From positions 11,725,001 to 11,789,000 of the forward strand of contig NC_088326.1 in assembly GCF_910592395.1 (NCBI RefSeq): DNA of 64,000 nucleotides, written 5' to 3'. The position numbers and the translations under genes were made by a program. Shown here in pieces: positions 9,201 to 60,146 of the stretch. Numbering within the stretch: the first letter of the stretch is position 1; each line of letters begins with the position of its first letter. The notes below the pieces were generated by a model. The model was not told where the DNA came from, ran no database searches, and was given only the letters and a program-made list of their open reading frames with translations. This DNA comes from Lineus longissimus. Taxonomy: Eukaryota > Nemertea > Pilidiophora > Heteronemertea > Lineidae.

Positions 9201-11447
9201 TTGTCGCAATAAAAAGTATCTCCATAGGAATCCACTAGCCGGTGATATAAAGGAGCATATTGGCCATTCCAAGGAATGCACTCACCCATTAAGACTGGGC
9301 CAGCAAAGCGGATGGATTACTGAATTGATTCCGAGCTGGAGGTGTTGGTTTGTCTCATTACCTGGAGCTAAAATGTATGCCAAGACCGAGGTGACAGCTA
9401 ACCCAAGAGATTATGGTCGTCTCACCAAATATTCTGTGGTCAAAACGAGGCTCATACATAAACCATTTTGAAATGAAACATTGTAACAAATGTGTTTTAG
9501 GAATCGGCGCTTAGGAGGGTTATGACTTGGTCAAGAAAGCTGCATTGAACTGCCAAATCTAGACAACACTGCCCCCCCCCCTCCTTTAGAGATCACAAAT
9601 ATAGCTTGGTAACAATAGTAAAACCATTTTCACAGGGAAAAGAAGAACGATTTTTTGGGGGAAATCTGTGAATAGGAAATAAAAGTGAGCTAAAATGCTC
9701 TACTCATTTGTTGGTGGTAATGATTCAATTCAAAACCTGTTCTGAAAAACATCGACTTTGTACCCAATTCGATTTTTTGGACTTGGAAAGCACCTACTGT
9801 TCAAACAATGACGTTAATACCGCCTCCTCCCATGCAGACACATCGCCATAAAAATAGATGCCTTGCGTAACACTTTTTCGTACCAGACAGCTACGCCCAT
9901 GGAACAATGCAAGAAGGTGGGTGTGTTACCGTTTGTTTATGCCAATAATAGAGAAATGTATTGTCACACTTTTTTATTTTTACAATTTATGACGAATGTT
10001 AGCAAAAATTAAAGTTTTCATGAGAAAAACATTTGGCTTAGCACACCTTAGGTAACTGAAGGAACACGCCACTCACCTGAAGATAGAAAGAGAAAAGCAT
10101 GATCAAAAGATTTCAAAATCACATTGAACATGCTAAAGTATTATCCAGGACACACTGAAAATGATAATTAAAATGGAGAACAGAACTTCTTGATTAAATC
10201 TTTACCTGATTTTTCCTCAAATGTGAACTGCTCTGCCCCAGATTTTGCCGCCGCCGAGCGACTTTTGAAAATCTCTTCCTCCATACGAGGGAGAGGGTCA
10301 CACGTATACGCCCGCTTACTCCGAACATGTGTAGCATCTTTACATCCCAGGCCAGAATTATCCGACATACCCCGACGTATATTCCGCGGACTAGGATTTC
10401 TATCTCCTTCAAATTCCTCCAAAGAAACCTTCTGATAATCTACACTTTCAACTGCTTTCTGACGATTGTGCAGCTTCGCTAAATGCGATCGTTTACCCTT
10501 ATCGGAATCGGAATCACATCCGCGGTTTGATGTATCCATATGCTTTGAAAAACAGTTGTTATTCTGCAAACCTTGACATAACTTCTCCACATCAATCTCC
10601 TTACTATCTGACTCTGACCTAGAATTTTGCAACTTCTTATGACCTTGACCTATCACAGAAAGACCTTGACCTCCAGCGGCCCCCACTTCACCAAAATCAC
10701 CATCACTACGAATCCTGCTCAACCTGAGTCCTTCCCTGGAGTCCTTTGCTCGAATCTCTGGCGTGAGAGTGAGACTTTTCTCACCATTCGGCTCAAAGAA
10801 TGGCCGTCCAAGATTAGGTTTTGCTGTGACTACCAACAACTCAACGCTATGACCATCATCGTTCTTGTTCCCCTTCTTAATGTGCGAATCCTTATCCAAC
10901 ATTCCTCTATCCCTGTCACGGAGACTCTCAGACACAGCATCATAAAAAGCATCCGATCCTTTGTCCCCTGCAGTCGCAGCATCCCCACCTGAACATCCCT
11001 CTTTCATCCCGCCACCAGCGCTTCCTTCCACACCCTCCTTCTTTGTCTCCTCATACGCCGTAGCATCGATCGTCAAACGTCGCTGAATCAATCGCGGCGA
11101 CTTCTTAAACTCCTCGTCAAAATGTATAGAATTCTGTTTCAGTTTTTGCCGTTTCGGTTTCGACGATCGCCGCTGACGCTGCTCGCCATCTTTTGGCGAC
11201 AGCATTCGGTCATCCTCCGAAACCGAATCTGACATGGTCCGGTATGAAAACGTTTTACTCCTGTATGGGGACACAGACTTTGGTGATGGCGATGGAGATG
11301 ACCGTGGTGATGGGGAGGGACTCGATTCTGGACTGGGTGGCTGAAGGTGGACATCAACACTGAGTTGTTGAGCTCCAGGTCTTGTTAGCCGGGAACGGTG
11401 GCTAGACGGAACATGAACTGGTGGAGACACTTTCTTGTTCATTTTGT
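250..11447 (-). CDS. Chain 2: Ser/Pro-rich charged protein gene of unknown function
   Basis: Minus-strand exons 11,447-10,206, 3,656-3,468, 2,898-2,721 and 271-250 join with phases 1, 1 and 2, all matching, giving about 540 residues from the ATG at 11,442 to TAA at 250. The product starts MNKKVSPPVHVPSSHRSR, has an SPSPSPRSSPSPSPKS tract (about residues 35-55), several R/K-x-x-S phosphosite-like stretches, an acidic/basic mixed middle and a conserved-looking C-terminal part (LTPELRKKHH; PIRWHFTDPHHKKRIFNQIF). No transmembrane segment or enzyme motif is seen, so a cytosolic or nuclear phosphoprotein is likely. It could be the 3' half of chain 1 if an exon between 13.1 and 11.5 kb was missed. 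Confidence 0.68.
1015..1136. mobile_element. Hairpin MITE (about 120 bp, inverted arms)
   Basis: GTATTGATTGTCTCACCAAA at the left is matched in reverse by TTTGGTGAGACAATCAATAC at the right, and inner arms also pair (GGTGGAGCTGAAATGTTGGCC against a near-complement). Related fragments occur near 9,340-9,440 and 23,395-23,440. It sits in the last intron of chain 2. Confidence 0.75.
1325..1375. mobile_element. Fragment of the TA-flanked MITE family
   Basis: AACCTCTCCCAGTGGACACCTCT followed by AAGGACGAG resembles the end of the common CAGTAGAACC element seen complete at 36,292. It is short and diverged. Confidence 0.4.
2721..2898 (-). CDS. Chain 2 exon: LGRSNTAGNLFRHRKKDGAG...
   Basis: The acceptor is TTTTTTCTCTGATTTCAG, the best in the window; 58 codons; donor CAAATAT|GTGAGTAT. 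It enters with two bases and leaves two. The basic RHRKKD and the PIRWHFTDPHHKKRIFNQIF stretch look constrained. Codon use is more GC-rich than the flanking intron. Confidence 0.8.
3468..3656 (-). CDS. Chain 2 exon: LRPNLSAEDLPSVSSEGPTA...
   Basis: The acceptor is TTTCTCTCCTTATAG; 62 codons; donor ACCATG|GTAGGT. It enters with two bases completing Gly from the big exon and leaves one. The alternative donor four bases on would break phase with the next exon. Content: a helical FLQEVEAITKRERGRR and RLSIEAP, a possible basophilic kinase site. Confidence 0.78.
3900..4245. repeat. Two-copy direct repeat of about 160 bp
   Basis: The phrase CAACCACCCTTGGAGATGG recurs at about 4,003 and 4,175, with CTGGAGGCTGGAG and GGGTGCTTCTTTGA keeping the same spacing. 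The copies differ at roughly one base in six. Confidence 0.75.
4370..4415. repeat. Short 10-11 bp tandem repeat (GATAAGTATAA)
   Basis: Four imperfect copies of GATAAGTATAA in a row. Confidence 0.75.
4560..5790. repeat. Diverged tandem repeat, several units
   Basis: GAGTGACTGC plus the following TAATCGGCCGGC-like block recurs at about 4,842, 5,187, 5,508 and 5,698. GGACAACAGGAAG and ACCAGCGAATGTC recur between them. The units vary in length. Several short open frames in this stretch are products of the repeat. Confidence 0.65.
6945..7455. repeat. Two-copy repeat of about 310 bp, third trace near 7,900
   Basis: ACAGAACGAGGTRCAAATCTTG followed by TGGTATGYATTGGA and a GATGTCTG-AAGAGTGAGATA block occurs at about 6,963 and 7,286. 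CAATCTTGTCGGTATGCATTGGA near 7,910 is a third, partial copy. Confidence 0.7.
8890..9075. repeat. About 36-bp tandem repeat, 5-6 copies
   Basis: AAGAACTTGCCATTACCCAC recurs at about 9,002 and 9,035, with more diverged copies from about 8,900. The open frame here encodes only the repeat. Confidence 0.8.
10206..11447 (-). CDS. Chain 2 large exon, start codon at 11,442
   Basis: A 1,242-base exon. The start AAA ATG AAC has A at -3. A CTAG acceptor sits five bases above it, with only a weak pyrimidine tract, so the exon may be internal or begin in the 5' UTR. 412 codons are followed by TCAG|GTAAAG, a good donor. The encoded part is low-complexity: Ser/Pro repeats, then EEFKKSPRLIQRRLTIDATAY, Gly-rich and Arg/Asp/Ser-rich stretches, ending EQFTFEEKS. 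The frame continues 12 codons past the donor into the intron. A long reverse-strand frame resembling a retroviral-type RT motif is a shadow. Confidence 0.75.
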
Positions 11448-11779
11448 CTAGTTTTATCACAGGTATCGACAGAAAACAAGTAACAGCCAAATAGTTTCTA
11501 TATCCTTTATCATGTTATGCTGGGGGCCCTAAACTTCAACAGGCCTAAGGTTTTTAAGCACGATCACAATAGCAGCAAATATAAAAACAAAGCACTCAGC
11601 AATAACTCAGTAGAACGAGAATCCCTGAATGAAAAATTCAAATTCAGAACCAATGCTCAGCAGAAGGATAATCAGTTTCATTCGTTGATGATGATGTGAA
11701 AGGTTCTTTTGTAATGATTTGTAGTCAGTCTCCTGCCTCAAATATCGCGAAGGGAAATTGCTTTCAGAACATTCCATGG

Positions 11780-19200: not shown

Positions 19201-22200
19201 AGGGGTCATTCTCCTGGGAGTATTTCCCCTCCAAGGCGGGATGAGCGGTAATGCGTGCCACTACGGTTTAGCGCCAATTGGGTTTATTGGCCTAGTGACT
19301 CCGACTTCGGCTTCGTGGCATAGACACCACAAGTTGAGGAGGGGTAGTCCACCACAAGCTACAGTCCACTTGGATGTGGTCTTTTACTTGCTCTGGAATA
19401 GACACCAGATACAAGGAACCTCGGTTTTACGTCTCATGCGAAGGACGGAGCAATCGAGGTAAATCAACTTGCTCAGGGTTGAAAGCAGACAGACCGGTGC
19501 GGGAATCGAACCCACGATCTTCGGATTGTGAGTCTGAAGCCCTAACCACTCGGCCATGCTGCCCCACTCCAAGCTTTTGATTCATCACTGTTCGTTTCGG
19601 CTTGAAAGGTCGTGTGGTCAAAGTCATGACCACATACAGAAACAATTAGTATGGTACATCATCAAATAATTGAGCTCCACATTGGAACAATTCCAACAAC
19701 ATCTTTTTGAGAGTAGCAATGTTGGTTGATTTCCGGGCAAATTTATTCCACGCTTTTCATTCACCTCTATTCATTTTGGCGAAAAGGGTTGTGTTGTCGA
19801 AGTAACTACAACACTGACAGTGCATCCTGAGATGATAAAACTCCAATATTGACACAACCTCTTCAACAACGAGACAACACTGTGGAAAATTGGGTTTTTT
19901 CGTGACATGACTAATGGCTTGAGATTGGCTCTCATCTCTTTTCATTTTAGCGTGATAGGTCATCTTGTCAAAGATAAGACAACACAAACAGAGACAATTA
20001 CTTAATGTACAGATAATGTCAGATAATGAGCTCCAATAATGACACAAGCTCTTCAAATAGATGTACCAGACAGAGGTGTGGTAAAACCTATTGATTTCTG
20101 CCACCTTATTCGTGGCTCACCATTAGCTCTATGCAGACATCTCTCTTTGTTTCATCGTAAAATGTCATGTTGTCAAAGTTACAACAACATACACAGAATT
20201 ACTTTTCATACAATACATCATCAGATAATGAAATTCCATTGCTGAGCAACCCCTTCAACTATACCAGCAGACAACACTGTGGTAAAATTGGCGGTTTACC
20301 GCGACCTTTCTCACAGCACGCAATGTGCTCTCTGCGGACATCTCTCTTTACCGTGAAAGGTCGTGTTGTCAAAGTTAAAACAACAGGAACAGAGACGTGT
20401 AGAGAACATCATTAGATAATGTAGCTCCAGCAGTGATACGACCTCAAGCGACCTGAAGCAGTGCCGCGACCTTACCACCTACAAGACAATGCAGAAGTTA
20501 TATCGGTTAATTTCCGCCACATTTTCCTGCCTTTCAATTGGCGGCAGGCATTTCCTTCAGGCAGTTTCTTAATGAACTGTGTTTGTTTCCCAAATGAGAT
20601 GGGTGAGACTTGATGAGGTTAGCATGACATGATTTTGTTAGGAGTCGTCTAGCAGTCTCCAGGCAAACTTGGTTCAGATTTACAAAATCTAACATCTCTG
20701 GGTATTCTCTGGGTGACCATAAACTTCTACATTTACTAAAACAGCCCACAGCAGAAGTAAGCTTATCTCAATTCTTCCCTTTCTTCGATAAAGTCTGATT
20801 GATAGCGGAAAACGGAAAGCAAACAGGAACAAAATTAATCACAATAAAATTTCCCAATGAGTTGCAGGGCGGTAAACCACAGTTATTGCATTGAGATATA
20901 TCAAGTTAAAAACTGCCTTTAGCACTGTATTCGAGTCTTAGCAAGAAATTGCAAGAAGTATATAGCTTCGAGGACTATTACATGACCTGGCTCCAAGTGA
21001 AATTTCCAGACGTAGATGGTTTATTGTCAGTTAATCAGATTACTACACTGGCTTTCCATAACTCTGGTGGACATGATAGCAGATAATTGCAGGGTACTTA
21101 ACACCTTCCGAAAGCTTCTAATAGGGGCATTTTCGGTTCAAAACTTGGTCATAATGTTCCCCAGTGACAATACAAATGTCTGTATCAAGGGTAGTTGATC
21201 TAGTGAGGCCCGTAGCTTGTCGCGATATATTATACCTCCATTTGGTGGGGAAAGAGTAGGACTGCAGTGTCAGCCTCATACTTGAGACAGCAAAGAAGTT
21301 CTTCGCAGGTCTTATACTTGTGACACCAGAGTAGGTTGTCTTGCAAGCATAAATGAATATACTACTCAAATTCACACCGCTCATGCTTCGCTGGGCATGA
21401 CAGATTTCTTTTCCTTCCGGCCGGGACGGAAAATTACTCGTATCAATCGATCGATGAATTCACATCGCCGGAACGGATACAAATTAGGCTTGTTTTCTTG
21501 CAGCATCATTACAGGCGAGTTGTCTCTTGGGCAATGTACCAAGGTCAAGGCCATATGAGTACCACCATAAAGGAATAAACGTAAATGTATCACTTCCAAT
21601 TCCGTAGTTTTCACTTTTTTAAAGAAGATTGCAAGATTTCTCCATGAGAACTAAACTGAAAAGACAAACAATCATCACCTTGACCAGACACCAATGCTAT
21701 CAAAGATATCAACGCCACCAACATCACCTCGGCCGGACATCAACGCCAGCTGGGCCAGACTTCAAAGCAACCTTGGCCAGACATCAATGCCACTACGGCC
21801 GGACATCAACGGAGTCTAATGAAACAAATCTCATCTCCGCACATCACCTGCCGATGACATATCTACTGACAGGTGTTCCTTAACCCCAGGAAAAAATACT
21901 TATATCTTTCTTGATCTTGAGATGTCAGCAGAGACGTTTCTCCCATCTTCATGTGAGCACGCCTGACATGCTGGAGGCACTGTAAATAATTCAAATATCA
22001 TCTTTTTCTAATGGGAGCACTCCCCCTTTATCAGTAATCAATGCTCTTACCGTGCTTTCAGTGATGGCTGATGTAGTCTTAACAGATTTCTGTTTGGGGG
22101 AATTTTTAGGTCAGGTGTAGAAGTTGAATGCGGGCATCCTAGGTTTAAGGAAACATCACGGCTGTCACATTCTCCACCTACTTCTAGGAACTTGACTTGT

Positions 22201-30366: not shown

Positions 30367-33300
30367 AACACTGACTGATAGCTGAAAAACATCGCCGCCC
30401 AATTACATTGAGAGCCCTCCAATTAGGCTGAAAGCCGTTGTAGATTTTAAACAGGTATATAACTTTAATTATTAAATGGAACAAATCTCCTGCCAACACG
30501 CCGTCAATTGAAAAATAAGCTGGTTTGAAAATGTCATCAATGTGTTTCAGATCTGGTTTGAGACACGGTGATGGAAGTACTTTGTTGCCAGGCACCATGC
30601 TTGGGTTTCAATTCATATACAGAAGACCAATAATTTAATTAATTTGCACTGGTATCATGATCTTGGAATGCGGTTTACGGAGAGCTTTGGCATAGACCTT
30701 ACTATTTCTGCTGTCAAAATAAGCTCCTTAGAGGGGGAAAAAAATTAAAATCTTCAAAAAACCAAGACTCATTCCCGACTCTCTTGAGAGGCTTGGTGAA
30801 AGTAAACGGGGCCAAACATTTCCTCCAAGGTGTTTTGTCAAATGTTGAACTTCTTACTGTACACACACTCAGCTGATACATTACTATTACATTACCCACA
30901 CATTACCCTCAGGTTTGTCGTGCCCGTATATTTCCCCGCTACACAACATCCCGAAGTGACCAGCAAACAGTCCCCTGGACATTAAGTATCATGAGAAATG
31001 ATGGGCCAATCGCCTTACCGGGACTTTGCAATTGGAAAAAGTAGGTTTTCTGCTCCAGCATAATGTATACGAGAGGTTTTCATCGCCATGACATGTGATA
31101 ATTATGTCTGCGACAAGCAACACGGATCGCTGAGCTGTATTTGACTTTGCGGAGCTATGGCCAAACAGCTTTTAGCACATCTCATGCGGACAAATTGTTA
31201 ATTTTGGGTGTGATAGACTTGAAATTAAAACATTGGTCTCTGTTCTAGAATAAAGACAGTTGGATGGAGCAGCCTAATTCCTGTAGCAATGCCCGTTTCC
31301 CACTGATTACAAATGAAGCAAACACGAACAGAATAATTAACAGACAGCAATGTCTGCACGAAAATAGCTCAGCAGTCTCAATAATTAACAAGATCTCAAT
31401 AATTAACAAGATTTTTATTTCATAACTAAATATAGCTTATATCGCGCTGAATATAACTTTTATGATATCATGAGTAGGTGGCAAATAATATTGAGAATAA
31501 TTGCCTACAGACTTATCTGCTAATGGATAAAAGATGCAACAGTAGCTATTGTACAAGCTCCACACAATTGTGTAAAAAAATAAAACAGACTTTCCAATCG
31601 AGAAGCTCAATCCATCGATCAAACCACTAATTCTGTTCACCAATTCATCATTCCATGAAAACACCAATCATGATCACCGAAGAAAACTGATAAAAGAAAC
31701 GGGTGAAACAGTCTTCGCGGAATAAAAAATATAAGTGACTGCCGGCCAGAGTCCTCTATCAAAACCTGTGTACATTACGTGTACATTGTTGTGCATAAGT
31801 TTTGGTAAAAAAAGTACTCATTGGACCAATCAATCTGCACAAAATTTTATATGTGTCAAGAAGAACCCTTTGCCAACAGCATAATAAAGTTTAAAAACAT
31901 TCCAATACCGATTGCCTGAGAAAAAGAGATTTCCGTACACCATATCCATCAAAACGTCACTGGCGCATTGATATGGCCCTGTCAAAGTACAAGTTCTAAA
32001 CTGACCAGTGAGACCACATTTTCTTAAATATATTATCAAAAAGCATATTTCTGTGATGGCCTGACTCTGTAGATTAAGAATCAACCACAGATTGAGAATT
32101 AATTCCACTTTGGTCCATCCCAGCCATGTATTTACCACAACTTGACATTTTGATAAGCTCTATGTGACTGTGCCACACTTCCGGTCGTGGATGAATACAT
32201 GTCTCTGCCCTGCCAGTCCTTCTGATTCTGCAGCTACTTAATCTCTTACGGTCGCCAGTATAAGTACATCCGCTGCATTATTCCTACGGGCCCAACAACA
32301 GGAAAAGACGCGTCAATAAATACCCTGCCTCCAAGTCGCACTCTATTACAGTGAATCCCAGCAACTGTAATCCGATTACTTGTAACAAATGCTGCAAGAT
32401 CCTGAAGGTCAGGGGATCAATGCTGCAGGAGGTAAACAAATAAAACCAGAGAGCCAGACGTGGTGGCATGGAAGTGACTGGACAGCAATAGCTTGGAAAA
32501 AAGATGACTTAAGGGTACAACTGTATCTAGTTCCTATTATCAACACCAGGGTGGGTATTGAAAACAAGACTCCCTGGCTATTCACGGTCCTTTGAAAGAG
32601 AATTACTGTTGACATTCTCCATACATGGGTTTCTATGCCAGAGCAGGCAGACGATCCAACACAAAGGGTTAATGTGTAACTTGATGAACAAAAACATGGC
32701 CAAGCTCTGAAATGGACCATGAAGCCGAAAATGTAATGATGTGAAAAAACAACACAGGTTGGGTATTGCTGATTTATTTCAGAAGAAACTACATTCCTTA
32801 TATGCTGATGGACAATCCTTGGGCAGGCAGATGAACATATTCTCCACATGATCGATACTGGAAAAATCTTCTACTAATTTGTACCACTATTGGGCGAATA
32901 TCCATGCTGACTTGGTACCAAGAGCTGAAATACAAAACACAATACATGTACCATGAAATCACTTTGATCAGTATCTCAATGTTTTTCCTCAATCTTACCA
33001 CCTTCTCCACTATACTTTTTGTCCAGAAGCAGCACACGGACAGATTCATTTTTTCAACCTGAGCACCCAGACAGATTATTGAGTTGGTGATGGTTTTACT
33101 GTAAGAGCACCCTGGACACATCTTGCTGCTGACCCGGTCAAAAGACCCAACAACACAGTTTTTCTAACTTTATTTTTAAAAATGTCCTTTCCCAGGACAG
33201 ACAAGCTCGGCAAGCTGGAAGGCCCGATAAGATAAGATGCTTAGCAATGTGGGCAATTGATTCTCCAGGGTGAAATTTCAAGGTTTACACTTCAATTGGT

Positions 33301-33501
33301 GGTACACTAGATATTACATTTGGCATGTTTGGTGCCAAAATTTTATGGTAAATTCATGACAGTCAAATTTGTGTGAGCTTCTTAACTAAAATGTCCACGA
33401 AAAATTCACAGTTTGCAGTATTTGACTGAACAGCTTCCTGTTAAATTTTAAACCTACCGTTGCTTCGGCTACTGCTGAATAATCATTAACTGCTGATCTC
33501 T

Positions 33502-34427
33502 TCACCTTGTCGATCTCTTTTTTTCAGCTAGGAACCCTGGGGTACGTGTTGCACCAATAGCTGATGACCTCTTTTTTTCAGCTAGGAACCCTGGGGTACG
33601 TGTTGCACCAATAGCTGATGACCTCTTTTTTTCAGCTAGGAACCCTGGGGTACGTGTTGCACCAATAGCTGATGACCTCTTTTTTTCAGCTAGGAACCCT
33701 GGGGTACGTGTTGCACCAATAGCTGATGACCTCTTTTTTCCAGCTCGGAAGCATCTTGGACATGAAAGACCAATAGCTCTTGATCTCTTTGCTCTAGCTA
33801 GAAGACCTAAGGGCTCAACAGCAGTCAATCTCTTTTTTTCAGCGAGGAGCCCTGGGGTTCGTGATGAACCAATAGCGATCGACCTCTTTTTTTCAGCTAG
33901 GAACCCTGGGGGAACTGCTGTACCAATAGCTGATGACCTCTTTTTTCCAGCTAGGATGCAGAATGGACATAAAAGACCAATAGCTCTTGATCTCTTTGCT
34001 CTAGATAGAGGACCTAAGGGCTCAATAGCAGTCAATCTCTTTTTTTCAGCTAGGAACCCTGGGGGACCTGGTGGACCAATAGCGATCGACCTCTTTTTTC
34101 CAGCTAGGAACCCTGGGGGAACTGCTGTACCAATAGCTAATAACCTCTTTTTTCCAACTAGGAAGCATTGTGGACATGAAAGACTAATAGCTCTTGATCT
34201 CTTTGCTCTAGCTAGAGGACCTAAGGGCTCAATAGCAGTCAATCTCTTTTTTTCAGCTAGGAACTCTGGGGGACGTGGTGAACCAATAGCGATCGACCTC
34301 TTTTTTTCAGCTAGGAACCCACGTTGTCCATTAGCTGTTGATCTCTTCACTTCAACTATGGGACCGCGTGTGCCAACATCTCTCAAACTATTTGCATCTA
34401 CTGCTTCAGGATAATCTTCCTGAGCCC
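33502..34427 (-). CDS. Exon 3 of peptide precursor: 16 peptide units
   Basis: Units fall into three classes. Class A resembles SSAIGATRTPGFLAEKKR (18 residues, P-G-F-L-A core). Class B resembles LTAIEPLGPLARAKR (15 residues). Class C resembles SRAIGLSCPRCFRAGKKR (18 residues, a C-P-x-C pair, Gly before the basic site). Order along the protein is A A B C A / A B C A / A B C A A A A, so a higher-order A-B-C-A block was itself duplicated before the last four A units arose. Amidation-type Gly precedes KKR in all three C units and in one A unit (the fifth peptide). The frame ends in TGA just after KKRSTR. The antisense strand is also open for about 150 codons, because the repeat length keeps both frames stop-free; I treat that as a shadow. 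Confidence 0.88.
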
Positions 34428-35613
34428 CTTTAAAAAACGAGAGAAAAAGAATAATGTCATAACACAGTTGCAAACAAATCTTCTTCAAATGGTAGGATTA
34501 AAAAGTTAAGATATGAAGTCAGAATCACTTTACAACTGGTGTTAATACATTGCATAAATCAGTTCCTTCATCACACTGAAGATGGAGTTGCTTTAATGTG
34601 AAGCTTATAACGAACTAATAAGTTGATGGAGAGGGTACTTTGGCTAGAAAAATTGATGTAGATCTAGGTGCCGCTGAAAGTGTTATAGAGAGAAAGTGCT
34701 GCCCTTACCTTTGCTGCTTCCATGGGTCAACGTTAATGCCAGAAGCAATATCAGAATGGAGACCCCCATTGTGCCTAAGAGAAAAATTCTACAATTGATG
34801 AATGAATCAATGACCGGTGAACAGGGCAGAACATATTTTGTAATAAACCCTTTTTAACTTAACACTTTGGGTGCTGAATGACGGAGATCTCCGCCACCCC
34901 ATGGCGTATATACTAGGGTGCTGAATGACAAAGATCTCCGCCACCTCATGGCGTATACACTAGGGTGCTGAATGACAAAGATCTCGGCCACCCCAATGTA
35001 GTATTCACTAGGGTGCTGAATGACAGAGATCACCGCCACCCCAATGTAGTATTCACTAGGGTGCTGAATGACAGAGATATCCGCCACCCCATGAAGTATA
35101 CACTAGGGTGCTGAATGACAGAGATATCCGCCACCCTAATGTAGTGTACACTAGGGTGCTGAATAACAGAGATATCCATCATGAATTTAAACTTCCCGCC
35201 AGTGATGACAAATGCAATCTTCCCCCGATTATATCTTCGGCTACCAGTTCCACCTAGCACAATAGGTCAAGGTTATTTTTAGCCTCGCAGAAGAACACTT
35301 TAACCAAGGCGCATGCATAATTTGATACAAAACGTGGAAATTATGTTCCAGATTCTGCCAATTGTGGCTAAGACCTCAAAGGTGCATTGCCAAGATTGTA
35401 ATTTTTGTTGAACTTTATCGACCAACCCTGTGACCCATTGCTATGGTTGTTAGCAATCTAAAGAGATAGACTTAACAAAACAATTGAAATTTAATAAAGA
35501 TTGAATAGAACTTACCTCTCTCGCATCCGTTCAAGAGATATCAGTGTTGGTCAATCGGACTCGGATGAAAATGCTCGAATGAAATTCTGGTCGGGTTGTG
35601 AAATGTTTCATTT
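33502..35613 (-). CDS. Secreted multi-copy peptide precursor gene (3 exons, 328 aa)
   Basis: Seen: exon 1 (about 35,613-35,516, 5' UTR), exon 2 (34,774-34,709, ATG at 34,769) and exon 3 (34,427-33,502) are joined by GT-AG introns. Exon 2 ends one base into a codon and exon 3 supplies the other two. The product has a hydrophobic signal peptide (residues 1-17), a spacer ending in Lys-Arg at 48-49, then 16 peptide units of 15 or 18 residues (50-325), each closed by KKR or AKR, and a terminal STR. Known: this layout is typical of neuropeptide or antimicrobial peptide precursors processed by prohormone convertases. Inference: the units are released as mature peptides, and those ending in GKKR become C-terminally amidated. 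I do not recognise the family. It could be a neuropeptide, a defence peptide or an epithelial secretory peptide. The gene model is firm; the role is open. Confidence 0.86.
33520..33738. repeat. 54-bp coding tandem repeat, 4 near-identical copies
   Basis: The segment CAGCTAGGAACCCTGGGG recurs at a strict 54-base spacing (about 33,525, 33,579, 33,633, 33,687). The four units are almost base-identical, including silent sites, whereas older units further into the gene differ at many sites. 54 bases is exactly 18 codons, so expansion adds whole peptides without a frameshift. Confidence 0.93.
34709..34774 (-). CDS. Exon 2 of peptide precursor: signal peptide
   Basis: On the minus strand, a TCTCTTAG acceptor is followed four bases later by ATG (34,769-34,767). 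The 20 complete codons read MGVSILILLLALTLTHGSSK, a short charged-free N-terminus with an uninterrupted Ile/Leu core and a likely cleavage near His-Gly. The exon ends AAAG before GTAAGG, a strong donor. The leftover G plus GG from the next exon makes Gly, so phase is kept. The exon is only 66 bases and is too short to be found by ORF length alone. Confidence 0.87.
34866..35185. repeat. 47-bp minisatellite, about 7 copies, in intron 1 of the peptide gene
   Basis: The core GGGTGCTGAATGACAGAGAT recurs at about 34,867, 34,914, 34,962, 35,010, 35,057, 35,104 and 35,151. Copies differ mainly in the CCATGGCGTAT versus CCAATGTAGTAT segment. It lies wholly inside intron 1 of the peptide precursor gene. 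The arrays encode no product. Confidence 0.9.
35516..35613 (-). promoter_or_regulatory. 5' UTR exon of peptide precursor gene
   Basis: A consensus donor (GAGAG before GTAAG) lies at 35,516/35,515 on the minus strand, and a TATA box lies about 30 bases above the predicted start. No ATG in this stretch opens a long frame, so it is taken as untranslated leader. The exact transcription start is inferred from TATA spacing only. Confidence 0.6.
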
Positions 35614-35638: not shown

Positions 35639-35644
35639 TTTATA
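35639..35644 (-). promoter_or_regulatory. TATA box of peptide precursor gene
   Basis: On the minus strand the sequence reads TGATATAAAGAAG, with TATAAA at 35,644-35,639. A TGCGTCA half-CRE sits just downstream. Spacing to the leader exon and its donor fits a focused, regulated promoter of the kind common in peptide hormone genes. Confidence 0.6.
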
Positions 35645-36291: not shown

Positions 36292-36469
36292 CAGTAGAAC
36301 CTCTCTATTAAGGACACCCTCGGGACTGACAAGTGCCATCCTTAATAGAGAGGTGTCCTGATTAGAGAGATAAAATTGAATGGAAACAACCAATTTGGGA
36401 CCAAAACTAGTGTCCTTAATAGAGAGCTTGTCCTGAATAGAGAGGTGTCCACTAAGAGAGGTTCTACTG
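36292..36469. mobile_element. Complete 178-bp TA-flanked MITE
   Basis: CAGTAGAACCTCTCT at the left and AGAGAGGTTCTACTG at the right, with TA directly outside both. Internal blocks (TTAAGGACACCCTCGGGACTG and GGACCAAAACTAGTGTCC) are shared with the copies at 39.4, 42.5, 58.4 and 59.2 kb. No transposase is present in the window. Confidence 0.88.
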
Positions 36470-36569
36470 TATTACATTTGTAAAATCACTATGACTAGTC
36501 TAAGAGAGAGGAGCATTGTGAGTTGGCCAGTACTGTTGCTATCAGAAGTGTAAACCAGTGACACTGCCG

Positions 36570-53640: not shown

Positions 53641-53969
53641 AAATCGTGGTGTTCGAGAGTTGACATCATTGCTGACATCATTGGCGCCAAAGACTATTTC
53701 TTTTGACCCTGTTGACCTCGCTTCTAAAAGATTTTTGAGAAAGCCATTCAAACATTAAAATCAACTGCGAACATTATCTATTATATCACCGAGCTATATA
53801 AAAATGATATATCAAGAAATATCTGTCGCAATATTGAATTATACGATTAGCTGGAACTATTTGCACCCAATTACTCTTCCGCCAGCCTGACCTCGTCACA
53901 ATCATGGCGCCTTTTCAATATACCGACGAATTAAACAACGGAAATTCCTGTCTATCAATCGTTAAAGCC

Positions 53970-54047
53970 TTGATGGCCTCGGCGGTTAGACGGTTGCACT
54001 GTAGATTGGATGGTCACGGGTTCGAACCCCGGCGATTCTGTTTTTTT
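53970..54047 (+). ncRNA. tRNA-like Pol III cassette, unit 1
   Basis: A box TGGCCTCGGCGG (53,974-53,985), B box GGTTCGAACCC (54,019-54,029) and a T7 run (54,041-54,047). The T-arm pairs; the D-arm and acceptor stem do not close well, so it is tRNA-derived rather than a standard tRNA. Promoter boxes and terminator are all in place, so transcription is possible. Confidence 0.55.
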
Positions 54048-55120
54048 GAAAAATGTTCTTATTACTCTAATTTATTCATGTACGTTTATCAGGCGCGGAT
54101 CTGAGCGGGTGCACCAGACGCACGGCTCCTAATTGATGTAAACTTTTTAAATTGACCACTCATGACTATGAACACACCTGTCCAGGAATTTTGATGAGAA
54201 ATGCAGTGCACGCTCCCTCTTCTTCCAGTTCCTAGATTCGCCGGCCTTCTTATGCCATCATCTTATACCGTTATGAAAAATATCATGAAGAAAACCCCTT
54301 CACCCGAACTTTTCAAGCTTAAGTACAAACTGATTCCAGGTGTTCGAGCACTCCAGAGAATGGTTTGACTAGTCAGCGGCTTGAATTCCCGAGGGTACAT
54401 TGAGGCCAACAACTATTTCGGTTGACCTCGATTCCAAACCCTTTTTCAAGCTTCAAGTGGAACCATGACTTCTCAAAGAGCTGAGAGAATTATTGATATA
54501 TCATCAAACTGCAAAAAAGATCTCACCAAAAACGGAATGTAACTGTACGTTTGCTTAAAAATCTAAGATTTGCATGTCATGTCAAACCCGTCTCACATCA
54601 CACGCTAAATTCATCATTAGTGATGAGCATTTAGTTTGTAACTACAGTGATGAGCAGGCGGATAGATTCAAATTACATATCATCTTCCTGGTCACCTAAA
54701 TCCCACACCCAAATTGTCCCTTCCAATCACGTGCACGGAGCTACAAAGATATGATTGCCGTGTGCACGCGCACTTCCGACTCCAAAAGTATCGACTCGAA
54801 TCATAATTCAAATCCGCCATTGCTGTCGTCATTGGCGCCAAAGACTATTTCTTTTGACCCTGTTGACCTCGCTTCTAAAAGATTTTTGAGAAAGCCATTC
54901 AAACATTAAAATCAACTGCGAACATTATCGATTATATCACCGAGCTATATAAATACGACATATCAAGAAATAGCTGTCGCAATATTGAATTATACGATTA
55001 GCTGGAACTATTTGCACCCAATTACTCTTCCGCCAGCTTGACCTCGTCACAATCATGGCGCCTTTTCAATATGTCGACGAATTAAACAACGAAAAACCCT
55101 GTCTATCAATCGTTAAAGTC

Positions 55121-55196
55121 TTGATGGCTTCGGCGGTTCGACGGTTGCACTGTGGATTGGATGGTCACGGGTTCGAACCCCGGCGAATCTATTTTT
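55121..55196 (+). ncRNA. tRNA-like Pol III cassette, unit 2
   Basis: Same layout as unit 1: A box TGGCTTCGGCGG (55,125-55,136), B box GGTTCGAACCC (55,170-55,180), then a T6 run (55,191-55,197). It differs from unit 1 by a few substitutions in the A box and anticodon-like region. Confidence 0.55.
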
Positions 55197-56371
55197 TCGA
55201 GTTTTTTTGAAACATTTTCTTATTACTATTTATTCATGTACGTTTATCAGGCGCGGATCTAAGCGGGTGCACCAGACGCACGGCTCCTAATTGATGTAAA
55301 CTTTTTTAATTGACCACTCATTAAATTTTGGAACACACCTGTCCAGGAATTTTGATGAGAAATGCAGTGCACGCTCCCTCTTCTTCCAGTTCCTAGATTC
55401 GCCGGCACTCTTATACCATCATCTTATACCATTATGAAAAATATCATGAAGAAAACCCCTTCACCCGAACTTTTCGAGCTGAAGTACACACTGATTCTAG
55501 GTGTTCGAGCACTCCAGAGAATGGTTTGACTAGTCAGCGGCTTGAATTCCCGAGGGTACATTGAGGCCAACAGCTATTTCGGTTGACCTCGATTTCAAAC
55601 CCTTTTTCAAAATGGACATTCAAACCATAAAATCAGCCACAAACAATCTTTGTTGAAGGAACAACTTTGGCATGAGATAGGCTGTTTTTCATGCAAAAAA
55701 GTTTCAAGTAGAACCGTGACTTCTCAAAGAGCTGAGAGAATTATTGATACATCATCAAACTGCAAAAAATGTTCTCACCAAAAACGGATTGTAACTGTAC
55801 GTTGCCTAAATATCTAAGATTTGCATGTCATGTCAAACCCGTCTCACATCACACGCTAAATTCATCATTGGTGATGAGCATTTAGTTTGTAACTACAGTG
55901 ATGAGAAGGCGGATAGATTCAAATTACATATCATCTTCCTGGTCACCTAAATCCCACACCCAAATTGTCCCTTCAAATCACGTGCACGGAGCTATAAAGA
56001 TATGATGGCCGTGTGCACGCGCACTTCCGACTCCAAAAGTATCGATTCGAATCTTAATTCAAATCCGCCATTGCTGTCATCATTGGCGCCAAAGACTATT
56101 TCTTTTGACCCTGTTGACCTCGCTTCTAAAAGATTTTTCAGAAAGCCATTCAAACATTAAAATCAACTGCGAACATTATCTATTATATCACCGAGCTATG
56201 TAAATACGATATATCAAGAAATATCTGTCGCAATATTGAATTATACGATTAGCTGGAACTATTTGGACCCAATTACTCTTCCGCCAGCTTGACCTCGTCA
56301 CAATCATGGCACCTTTTCAATATGTCGACGAATTGAACAACGAAAATCCCTGTCTATCAATCGTTAAAGTC

Positions 56372-56447
56372 TTGATGGCCTCGGCGGTTAGACGGTTGCA
56401 CTGTTGATTGGATGGTCACGGGTTCGAACCCCGGCGAATCTATTTTT
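56372..56447 (+). ncRNA. tRNA-like Pol III cassette, unit 3
   Basis: A box TGGCCTCGGCGG (from 56,376), B box GGTTCGAACCC (56,421-56,431) and a T5 run. Both boxes are unchanged across the three units. Confidence 0.55.
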
Positions 56448-57624
56448 CGAGTTTTTTTGAAAAATGTTCTTATTACTATTTATTCATGTACGTTTATCAG
56501 GCGCGGATCTAAGCGGGTGCACCAGACGCACGGCTCCTAATTGATGTAAACTTTTTTAATTGACCACTCATGAAATTTACGAACACTCCTCAGTGTCCAG
56601 GAATTTTGATGAGAAATGCAGTGCACGCTCCCTCTTCTTCCAGTTCCTAGATTCGCCGGCCTTCTTATGCCATCATCTTATACCATTATGAAAAATATCA
56701 TGAAGAAAACCCCTTCACCCGAACTTTTCGAGCTGAAGTACACACTGATTCCAGGTGTTCGAGCACTCCAGAGAATGGTTTGACCGGTCAGCGGCTTGAA
56801 TTCCCGAGGGTACATTGAGGCCAACAACTATTTCGGTTGACCTCGATTTCAAACCCTTTTTCAAAATGGCCATTCAAACCATAAATTCAGTCACAAACAA
56901 TCTTTGTTGAAGGGACAACTTTGGCATGAGATAGGCTGTTTTTCATGCAAAAGAGCTTCAAGTAGGACCGTGACTTCTCAAAGAGTAGAGAGAATTATTG
57001 ATAGTCTATATCATCAAACTGCAAAAAAGATCTCACCAAAAACGGAATGTAACTGTACGTTTGCCTAAAAATCTAAGATTTGCATGTCATGTCAAACCTG
57101 TCTCACATTACACGCTAAATTCATCATTAGTGATGAGCATTTAGTTTGTAACTACAGTGACGAGAAGGCGGATAGATTCAAATTACATATCATCTTCCTG
57201 GTCACCTAAATCCCGCACCCAAATTGTCCCTTCAAATCACGTGCACGGAGCTATATAGATACGAATGCCGTTTGCATATGTTCATTTCTCTTTTCCACCG
57301 CAGTGGGCCTATATATTTTACCGTAGCTCTATAATGTTACCTGCAGAAATGACATTCGGCCAATGAGACAGTACTGCACCATATCTCTTCTTGATGTGCC
57401 CTCCCCTTCATTGTTCGCCATGTTGCCAGAGAGTGTACCAAGTCTTAGCCGAATGTTCCATGCCCCTTCACTACGCGTACTCTGTCTGATCTAGATGTGT
57501 ACTCTACCAACGTAGTGCACCTTGTTTATACCGGGTGGACCTTGCCTCCACCCTTAGGAAAAATCTGTCTCATTTTCACATGGTGAATACCTGATCATTT
57601 TCATAAAGGGATTGCATGAAATCA

Positions 57625-58390: not shown

Positions 58391-58569
58391 TATGGTTAAC
58401 CTCTCTATTAAGGACGCCCTCGGGAATGACAAGTGCTGCCCTTAATAGAGAGGTGTCCTGAATAGAGAGGACAAATTGAATGGAAACAACCAATTTGGGG
58501 ACAAAACTAGTTTCCTTAATGGAGAGGTTATCCTAAAGAGAGAGGTGTCCGCTAAGGGAGGTTCCACTG
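58391..58569. mobile_element. TA-flanked MITE copy
   Basis: AACCTCTCTATTAAGGACGCC through GGGAGGTTCCACTG then TA. The left tip has decayed (TGGTTAACC instead of CAGTAGAACC). Confidence 0.8.
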
Positions 58570-58679
58570 TACATGATACCGGTACTCGACATTCAAGTCA
58601 TCGTATTGTCTCGACTGAAATACATTCAGGCGGCAAAGTCCCAGTGAAGACTCCTTCAGTCTTTCCATCCTCAGGAGAC

Positions 58680-59230: not shown

Positions 59231-59408
59231 CAGTAGAACCTCTCTATTAAGGACACCCTCGGGACTGACTAGCGCTGTCCTTAATAGAGAGGTGTCCTTA
59301 TTAGAGAGGTCAAAATGAATGTTAATGACCTTTTTGGGACCAAAACTAGTGTCCTTAATAGAGAGAGTGTCCTTAGTAGAGAGGTGTCCGCTAAGGGAGG
59401 TTCAACTG
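59231..59408. mobile_element. 178-bp TA-type MITE copy
   Basis: CAGTAGAACCTCTCTATTAA through GGGAGGTTCAACTG. Length is identical to the 36.3 kb copy. The flanks are not an intact TA pair. Confidence 0.85.
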
Positions 59409-60146
59409 TTTAGTCTTAAGTTAACCTAGTTCTCGCTATACATTGTCTTCACAAACAATTCTTGTTGTCGTGCAGTTGCTTCAGTGTTCAAAGTTCTGGC
59501 ATTATTCCATACGAAAATAAATATTGCTTTAGCCAAGAAAAATTTTCTTCAAAATAAAATTCATTGGCCTGAAGTTGCCTCTTGGCACAGTTTTTAGGTC
59601 AAATTGAATTATAATTGATCCAGCTGACACAATGGGTTTGATCTGAAACCGATAACCTTGGTTGGATAAAATCATATATAATTGTTGACCTATTGTATCA
59701 TACTAAGTTGTTCTGGGGCAGGTAGGACTGCAGGACTGGAGTTTGAGACAGTTGGCTTTTCCAAATATTTTACTTGTGTTTAAAGGTATATAAAGCAAAG
59801 GGAGCGTGCTTGGTGGAGTGCAAAGAAAGTAAGTTAAAGTCTGCTCAAAGGTTCTATCGTTGACCCTTAACAAAACCTATCCTTGAAGCATTAAATAGAT
59901 TGTTTGCTTCTGTATCTTTTGCCCTTTTTGTGATCACCCTTTCCACAGGCAATTGGAGTTATACCAGGTGTCCATTGTATGAATGGGTGCCAGGCTTGCC
60001 AGGGAAGTTGACCTGTAATGCACCAGCACCCTGTCCAGGGGGAAGTGATTATCCTAGTCATTGATGCTACTGAAACCGGGATAAGGGCTAGCTCTGATAC
60101 CATTCGGCAGCTTTGGCTTGACTTAAACTTGATTTTCTGCCTTGAT

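Follow-up and report, generated by a model that had tools for sequence, protein, structure and literature searches.

The minus strand of the analyzed stretch of Lineus longissimus DNA (the window; 64,000 nucleotides, contig C20, 11,725,001-11,789,000, chromosome 19) probably carries a protein-coding gene for a secreted precursor of 328 amino acids. We consider it likely that this precursor is processed to about 16 peptides and that two genes on contig C5 are related to it. What tipped the balance towards a gene, over the evidence of the repeat alone, was the control for the signal exon together with the genes on C5.

Predicted gene layout and peptide units

The layout could be read on the minus strand from a promoter motif to a polyadenylation-like signal. 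A TATA box (TATAAA, 35639..35644; a motif only) lies 31 nt upstream of the presumed transcript start, and the 5' end of exon 1 was placed by its distance from this box. Exon 1 (35516..35613) is a predicted non-coding leader whose donor GAGAG/GTAAGTT is present in the DNA. It is followed by intron 1 (34775..35515, with the ends GTAAGT...TTAG), which contains a 48-bp minisatellite (34869-35177) and dispersed-repeat sequence. Exon 2 comprises 66 bp (34709..34774) with the ATG at 34769; its 61 coding nucleotides encode the predicted signal peptide MGVSILILLLALTLTHGSSK, called by our own hydrophobicity heuristic, and end at a phase-1 donor (AAAG/GTAAGG). Intron 2 (34428..34708, 281 bp) has the ends GTAAGG...TTAAAG and leads to exon 3, whose coding part of 926 nt including the TGA occupies 33502..34427. 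The polyadenylation-like AATAAA (33169..33174), again a motif only, is located about 330 nt beyond the stop. The phases fit, since 61 and 926 nt add up to 328 codons plus a stop. Thus, the TATA box, the leader exon, the 66-bp signal exon and the single large exon of the first-pass annotation were all located in the DNA, and its phase arithmetic was confirmed. Straight past the TGA, at 33440-33512 on the minus strand, we noted a degenerate, out-of-frame unit, GTGAAGAGATCAGCAGTTAATG, with a donor-like GTAGGT behind it.

Exon 3 begins with a 28-aa spacer, AQEDYPEAVDANSLRDVGTRGPIVEVKR (34342..34425), the 3' part of which resembles a diverged unit. The 16 units that follow are arranged on the minus strand as a first, divergent A-type unit of 45 nt (STANGQRGFLAEKKR, 34297..34341), three 207-bp higher-order copies (33676..34296), each of the order A-B-C-A with 54, 45, 54 and 54 nt, and three additional repeats of the final 54-nt A unit (SSAIGATRTPGFLAEKKR, 33514..33675). 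This gives ten A-type units including the divergent one, three B units and three C units, with 14 distinct units in all. Class A mostly reads ...PGFLAE, and class B is represented by LTAIEPLGPLARA, with EPLGPL or EPLGLL. The C units of the three 207-bp copies are SRAISLSCPQCFLVG, SRAIGLLCPFCILAG and SRAIGLSCPRCFRAG, all with KKR directly behind them; they carry a CPxC pair, whereas CxRC itself occurs in only one of the three, the others having CPQC and CPFC. Thirteen units end in KKR and three in AKR, and unit-by-unit reading bore out the earlier description of 16 units with these separators and of three peptide classes. Together with the in-phase hydrophobic signal exon of 20 residues, a dibasic or tribasic site in 16 of 16 units gives the locus the features of a multi-copy precursor.

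Several other features of the window were recorded. A 448-codon ORF (10168-11514, minus strand) has a Ser/Pro-rich N-terminal part, and a search of 5.8 billion proteins returned one relative of it, with 58% identity over 74%, on a 7.4-kb JGI contig; DNA of a related animal is therefore probably present there. Neither this ORF nor its relative was found in the viral and prokaryote collections. On the plus strand, 53667-57276 contains segments that recur at a distance of about 1.2 kb with 93-95% identity, and the ORF LAPKTISFDPVDLASKRF[LF]RKPFKH occurs there three times. At 21614-21730 on the minus strand, a further ORF starts like a signal peptide (MLVALISLIALVSGQGDDC...), and a tRNA-like match of 39.1 bits lies at 19491-19563, also on the minus strand. 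Copies of a dispersed repeat that features TTAATAGAGAG as well as its inverse are present at 36292-36473, 58398-58573 and 59231-59409 and are 85-89% identical.

Open minisatellites and the signal exon

The repeat itself turned out to be weak evidence for a gene, because the plus strand over the array is open as well and because other minisatellites of the same genome, one of them clearly intronic, read antisense as open repeats spaced by KKKR. The array could accordingly be a non-coding minisatellite, intronic or intergenic, and the signal exon a chance occurrence or part of another gene, a possibility that we regard as unlikely. The plus-strand unit ctgatgacCTCTTTTTTTCAG resembles a 3' splice site, its pyrimidine tract reading as KKR in antisense; KKR spacing can thus simply reflect an acceptor-like repeat in an intron. 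The plus frame (DLFFSARNPG...) is open for 305 codons, with wobble positions that coincide with those of the minus frame. Two loci elsewhere show the same appearance. At L012 (1495-1716 of the locus) 54-bp units hold the tract TTTCTTTTTCCAG, start immediately behind a PAN-domain exon and its donor and read antisense as STKINTSRAPQQFWKKKR (...QQFWKKKR). At L010 (1020-2120) the units read NSKVLTHGVLSKKKR, with 267 codons open, and the other strand has an exon-like ORF next to them. Pyrimidine-rich tracts occur in the units of both loci, in L012 ending in AG, and the antisense of the units gives KKKR-spaced open repeats; the two loci share with the window array the pyrimidine-rich strand, the unit length of 45 or 54 bp and the antisense spacing. 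Unlike the window gene, however, both lack a signal exon flanked by an acceptor and a donor within the 3.2-3.5 kb scanned, and neither matches the C5 genes L019 and L043 better than shuffled sequences do. A dibasic-processed secreted multi-peptide precursor stands as the best reading of the locus, but because of these look-alikes its proof from open frame and KKR spacing is weaker than the first-pass annotation had held.

Full openness is itself not confined to the gene's array. We sampled 17 arrays with a length of 200 bp or more, eight in the window and nine in 200 kb elsewhere in the genome, and found a fully open frame in four, all four in the window; the open frames of the other three comprise 69-75 codons versus 268 for the array of the gene. 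A protein search with exon 3 against the genome of 391,118,348 bp revealed one full copy (E 8.8e-190) and 17 other places at E <= 10, unrelated minisatellites among them.

The signal exon separates the locus from these arrays. When a signal exon was defined by an acceptor, a purine at -3, a donor and a hydrophobicity threshold of 2.4, a definition chosen after the exon had been seen, exon 2 was the sole hydrophobic ATG exon of this kind on both strands of the window. Simulation with a stricter Kozak rule produced none in 20 strands, and a set of 150 simulated strands contained on average 0.087; a 200-kb sample of the genome (20 x 10 kb, both strands) contained one. Moreover, exon 3 and the L019 exon are preceded in phase, at a distance of no more than 1.5 kb, by a signal exon, whereas this was the case for none of 83 control ORFs of at least 120 codons taken from the 200-kb sample of the same genome, with criteria that were likewise fixed post hoc. 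Among eight loci matching exon 3 that were scanned (L014, L015 and L020 lay outside the scan, and six matches had no locus), only L019 had a signal exon with acceptor and donor. The lack of such an exon at the control ORFs and at the other seven loci argues against a non-coding array. In addition, no exon of a host gene was recognized on the plus strand in a limited search with Pfam on a few ORFs.

Candidate relatives on contig C5

L019, a secreted-precursor gene on the minus strand of contig C5 near 22.33 Mb (2407-1360 of the locus), was found by its similarity to exon 3, at E = 2.28 genome-wide and rank 11 of 18. It was then found to carry an upstream signal exon on the same strand, with 61 coding nucleotides and phase 1. 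A tandem partner, L043, lies with it at 22.326-22.333 Mb on the minus strand, and a partial inverted copy, L042, is located between the two on the plus strand. L043 is 44% identical to L019, and their signal peptides agree at 16 of 20 residues; the signal exon of L043 also ends at 61 nt, with a donor, GTAGGT, that falls outside our GTRAG search pattern. Both genes have the motifs ACLRCWGLG and SLWCRxC (CLRCW core) as well as KR sites.

The L019 segment EPKRLVAVDPDYIGRPTRPRVFSLACLRCWGLG aligns collinearly, with one gap, with the window units B and C (EKKRLTAVEPLGLLARAKRSRAIGLSCPRCFRAG), which have E in place of D. The score of L019 against the window precursor was 83, versus 33.6 (SD 6.0) for shuffled sequences and reached by none of 500 of them. 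For L043 it was 52, versus 32.5 (SD 5.3) and reached by 1 of 300; this is only a partly independent test, as L043 is a relative of L019 and was found through it and not through the window. In controls with the reversed window the scores were 43 against L019, which 18 of 300 shuffles reached, and 33 (132 of 300), and the decoy arrays L010 and L012 scored at shuffle level. When L019 was searched back on the genome, seven places appeared at E <= 10 among eight candidates scored. Besides L019 itself, these comprise two C5 neighbors, at E 0.0032 and 0.029, two places in the window gene, at E 0.41 and 3.84, and two more. A comparison of the L019/L043 profile with exon 3 by hhalign gave a weak result (probability 14.5%, P 0.0019). 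The signal peptide of the window gene shows little likeness to those on C5, its scores being reached by 50 and 16 of 300 shuffles. For L019 there was no Pfam match above the cut-off, and for its exon no PDB match at E <= 1.

A signal exon of 61 nt in phase 1 behind an upstream acceptor is common to the window gene, L019 and L043, as are a single large exon 3 and KR sites. Both C5 genes have A[VL]DP, then CxRC[WF] and later a G, where the window gene has AVEP or AIEP. They differ from the window gene in having no tandem array and no G-KKR; their Gly-rich N-terminal part (GGGWSGGSR) and their second, final motif SLWCRxC are absent from the window precursor. The B-C homology is suggestive and falls short of proof; from these alignments, a common ancestry of the window gene with L019 and L043 is likely, and the match speaks against a mere minisatellite.

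Changes between copies and the coding strand

The three 207-bp copies differ by 29 changes, of which 15, 11 and 3 fall on codon positions 1, 2 and 3. This counts against a non-coding repeat, since neutral non-coding DNA should not avoid wobble positions. Taken singly in the minus frame, 26 changes are nonsynonymous, 2 are synonymous and 1 would give a stop, with an expected synonymous fraction of 0.291 (P = 0.0037); the would-be stop falls in codon 43, which is different in all three copies, and the stop itself occurs in none. The nonsynonymous excess hints at a diversification of the peptide cores, although the counts are small and some changes are adjacent or clustered; some of the adjacent ones may stem from gene conversion. 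When each of the 14 distinct units was compared with every other, 135 of the single-base codon changes were synonymous, 253 were nonsynonymous and none gave a stop, with expected fractions of 0.291, 0.669 and 0.041, respectively. Purifying selection between units was not seen in this comparison. The older differences between units look near neutral, and positive selection is not supported for them.

The same 29 changes give 26 nonsynonymous and 3 synonymous changes in the plus frame (P = 0.027), a fit nearly as good because the third positions of both frames coincide. Codon usage did not separate the strands either (0.04 for minus and 0.02 for plus with six training exons); a score trained on one ORF placed the plus frame (30.6) above the minus frame (18.0), and in the L019 exon the sense frame scored no better than the other frames. 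It is nevertheless highly improbable that the plus strand, with its frame open across the whole array, is the coding one: the window has no signal exon on that strand, the frame has no homologue at E <= 10 among 7,998 candidates scored, and it is in the minus frame that units B and C match L019 and L043.

With the minus strand as the coding strand, the product could still be an uncut, repetitive secreted protein of structural or mucus type, as secreted tandem repeats need no processing. We consider this quite improbable, given that the dibasic or tribasic site is kept in all 16 units, that the KKR/AKR codons show no change among the three 207-bp copies while the cores change, and that a Gly before KKR in three of three C units fits amidation.

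Routing by a signal peptide, cleavage by convertases, trimming and amidation at Gly are established steps in the processing of peptide precursors. By this scheme the 20-residue signal peptide would route the window precursor into the secretory pathway or granule, and enzymes of the furin or prohormone-convertase type would cut after KKR, AKR and VKR. After trimming of these basic sites by a carboxypeptidase, about 16 peptides from classes A, B and C, each 12-15 residues long, would be released, among them SSAIGATRTPGFLAE, LTAIEPLGPLARA and amidated SRAIGLSCPRCFRA. The CPxC pair of class C could form a small disulfide loop, and the Gly ahead of KKR predicts C-terminal amidation of this class. 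The array itself probably arose by tandem amplification of a block containing B and C, and the gene probably shares its ancestry with the two C5 genes. The peptides would presumably act outside the cell, as signals or in defense. As to their target, the substitution pattern leans towards another organism, as in defense or mucus, and the amidation signals lean towards one of the worm's own receptors, as for a neuropeptide.

A broader idea, which we offer tentatively and consider rather unlikely, is that of a CxxC family of secreted peptides, seen only in L. longissimus so far, with one member that would have expanded into a fast-changing array of three classes. Its cores would be diversifying under selection while the cleavage sites are fixed, as in host-defense, mucus or recognition peptides, and its raw material may have been acceptor-like minisatellites with antisense KKR-spaced repeats. 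If transcribed, the gene would provide a new peptide family, with candidate relatives for comparison, in a phylum with few studied peptides, and a case for asking whether selection diversifies array peptides. Since the antisense strand of a minisatellite can read as an open repeat with KKR spacing, peptide discovery from genomes alone needs a check by signal exon or homology.

Comparison of the product with protein sets, as proposed in the first-pass annotation, returned no relative: the precursor had no homologue at E <= 10 among the best 7,996 candidates scored from 5.8 billion proteins, and exon 3 matched no Pfam family above the curated cut-offs. YadA_head, DUF5853 and other Pfam matches on exon 3 were all below these cut-offs and were rejected. 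The PDB held nothing better than E 0.86 for the precursor, and it was not found in the viral and prokaryote collections. Six unit strings and six CxRC strings were absent from 5.39 million open papers, and no open paper combines two of the six terms searched for the peptide units. The unfamiliarity claimed for the family thus agrees with proteins, Pfam, PDB and paper text, whereas 'undescribed' is unconfirmed. A study of L. longissimus neuropeptides names peptide families including pedal peptides 1, 2 and 3 (PMC8557429); none of the family names in its abstract and the matched passages points to the present units. Likewise, the passages of the nemertean toxin papers PMC9132205 and PMC6410017 matched by our terms contain no multi-copy precursor.

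Among known systems, the pedal peptide/orcokinin type is exemplified by the starfish SMP precursor with peptides of 13-18 residues and a DPLSAGF core (PMC5656890). Like this type, the window gene combines a signal peptide with numerous short peptides that are related to each other, of 12-15 residues in its case, and there is a partial likeness in class A, mostly ...GFLAE, and in class B with its EPL. However, the DPLSAGF core is in no window unit, and a CPxC class is unmentioned for the SMP precursor in the part of that paper compared here. A match to a pedal peptide precursor did not appear in the protein search or in Pfam, sets whose content of animal precursors is uncertain. With multi-copy neuropeptide precursors in general, as far as they are described in the matched parts of PMC8557429 and PMC2575521, the window gene has the overall layout and the expected processing in common; it differs in the three unlike classes per array and in recent copy differences that are nearly all nonsynonymous. 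A secreted multi-peptide precursor is therefore a known kind, while the unit sequences of this one look new.
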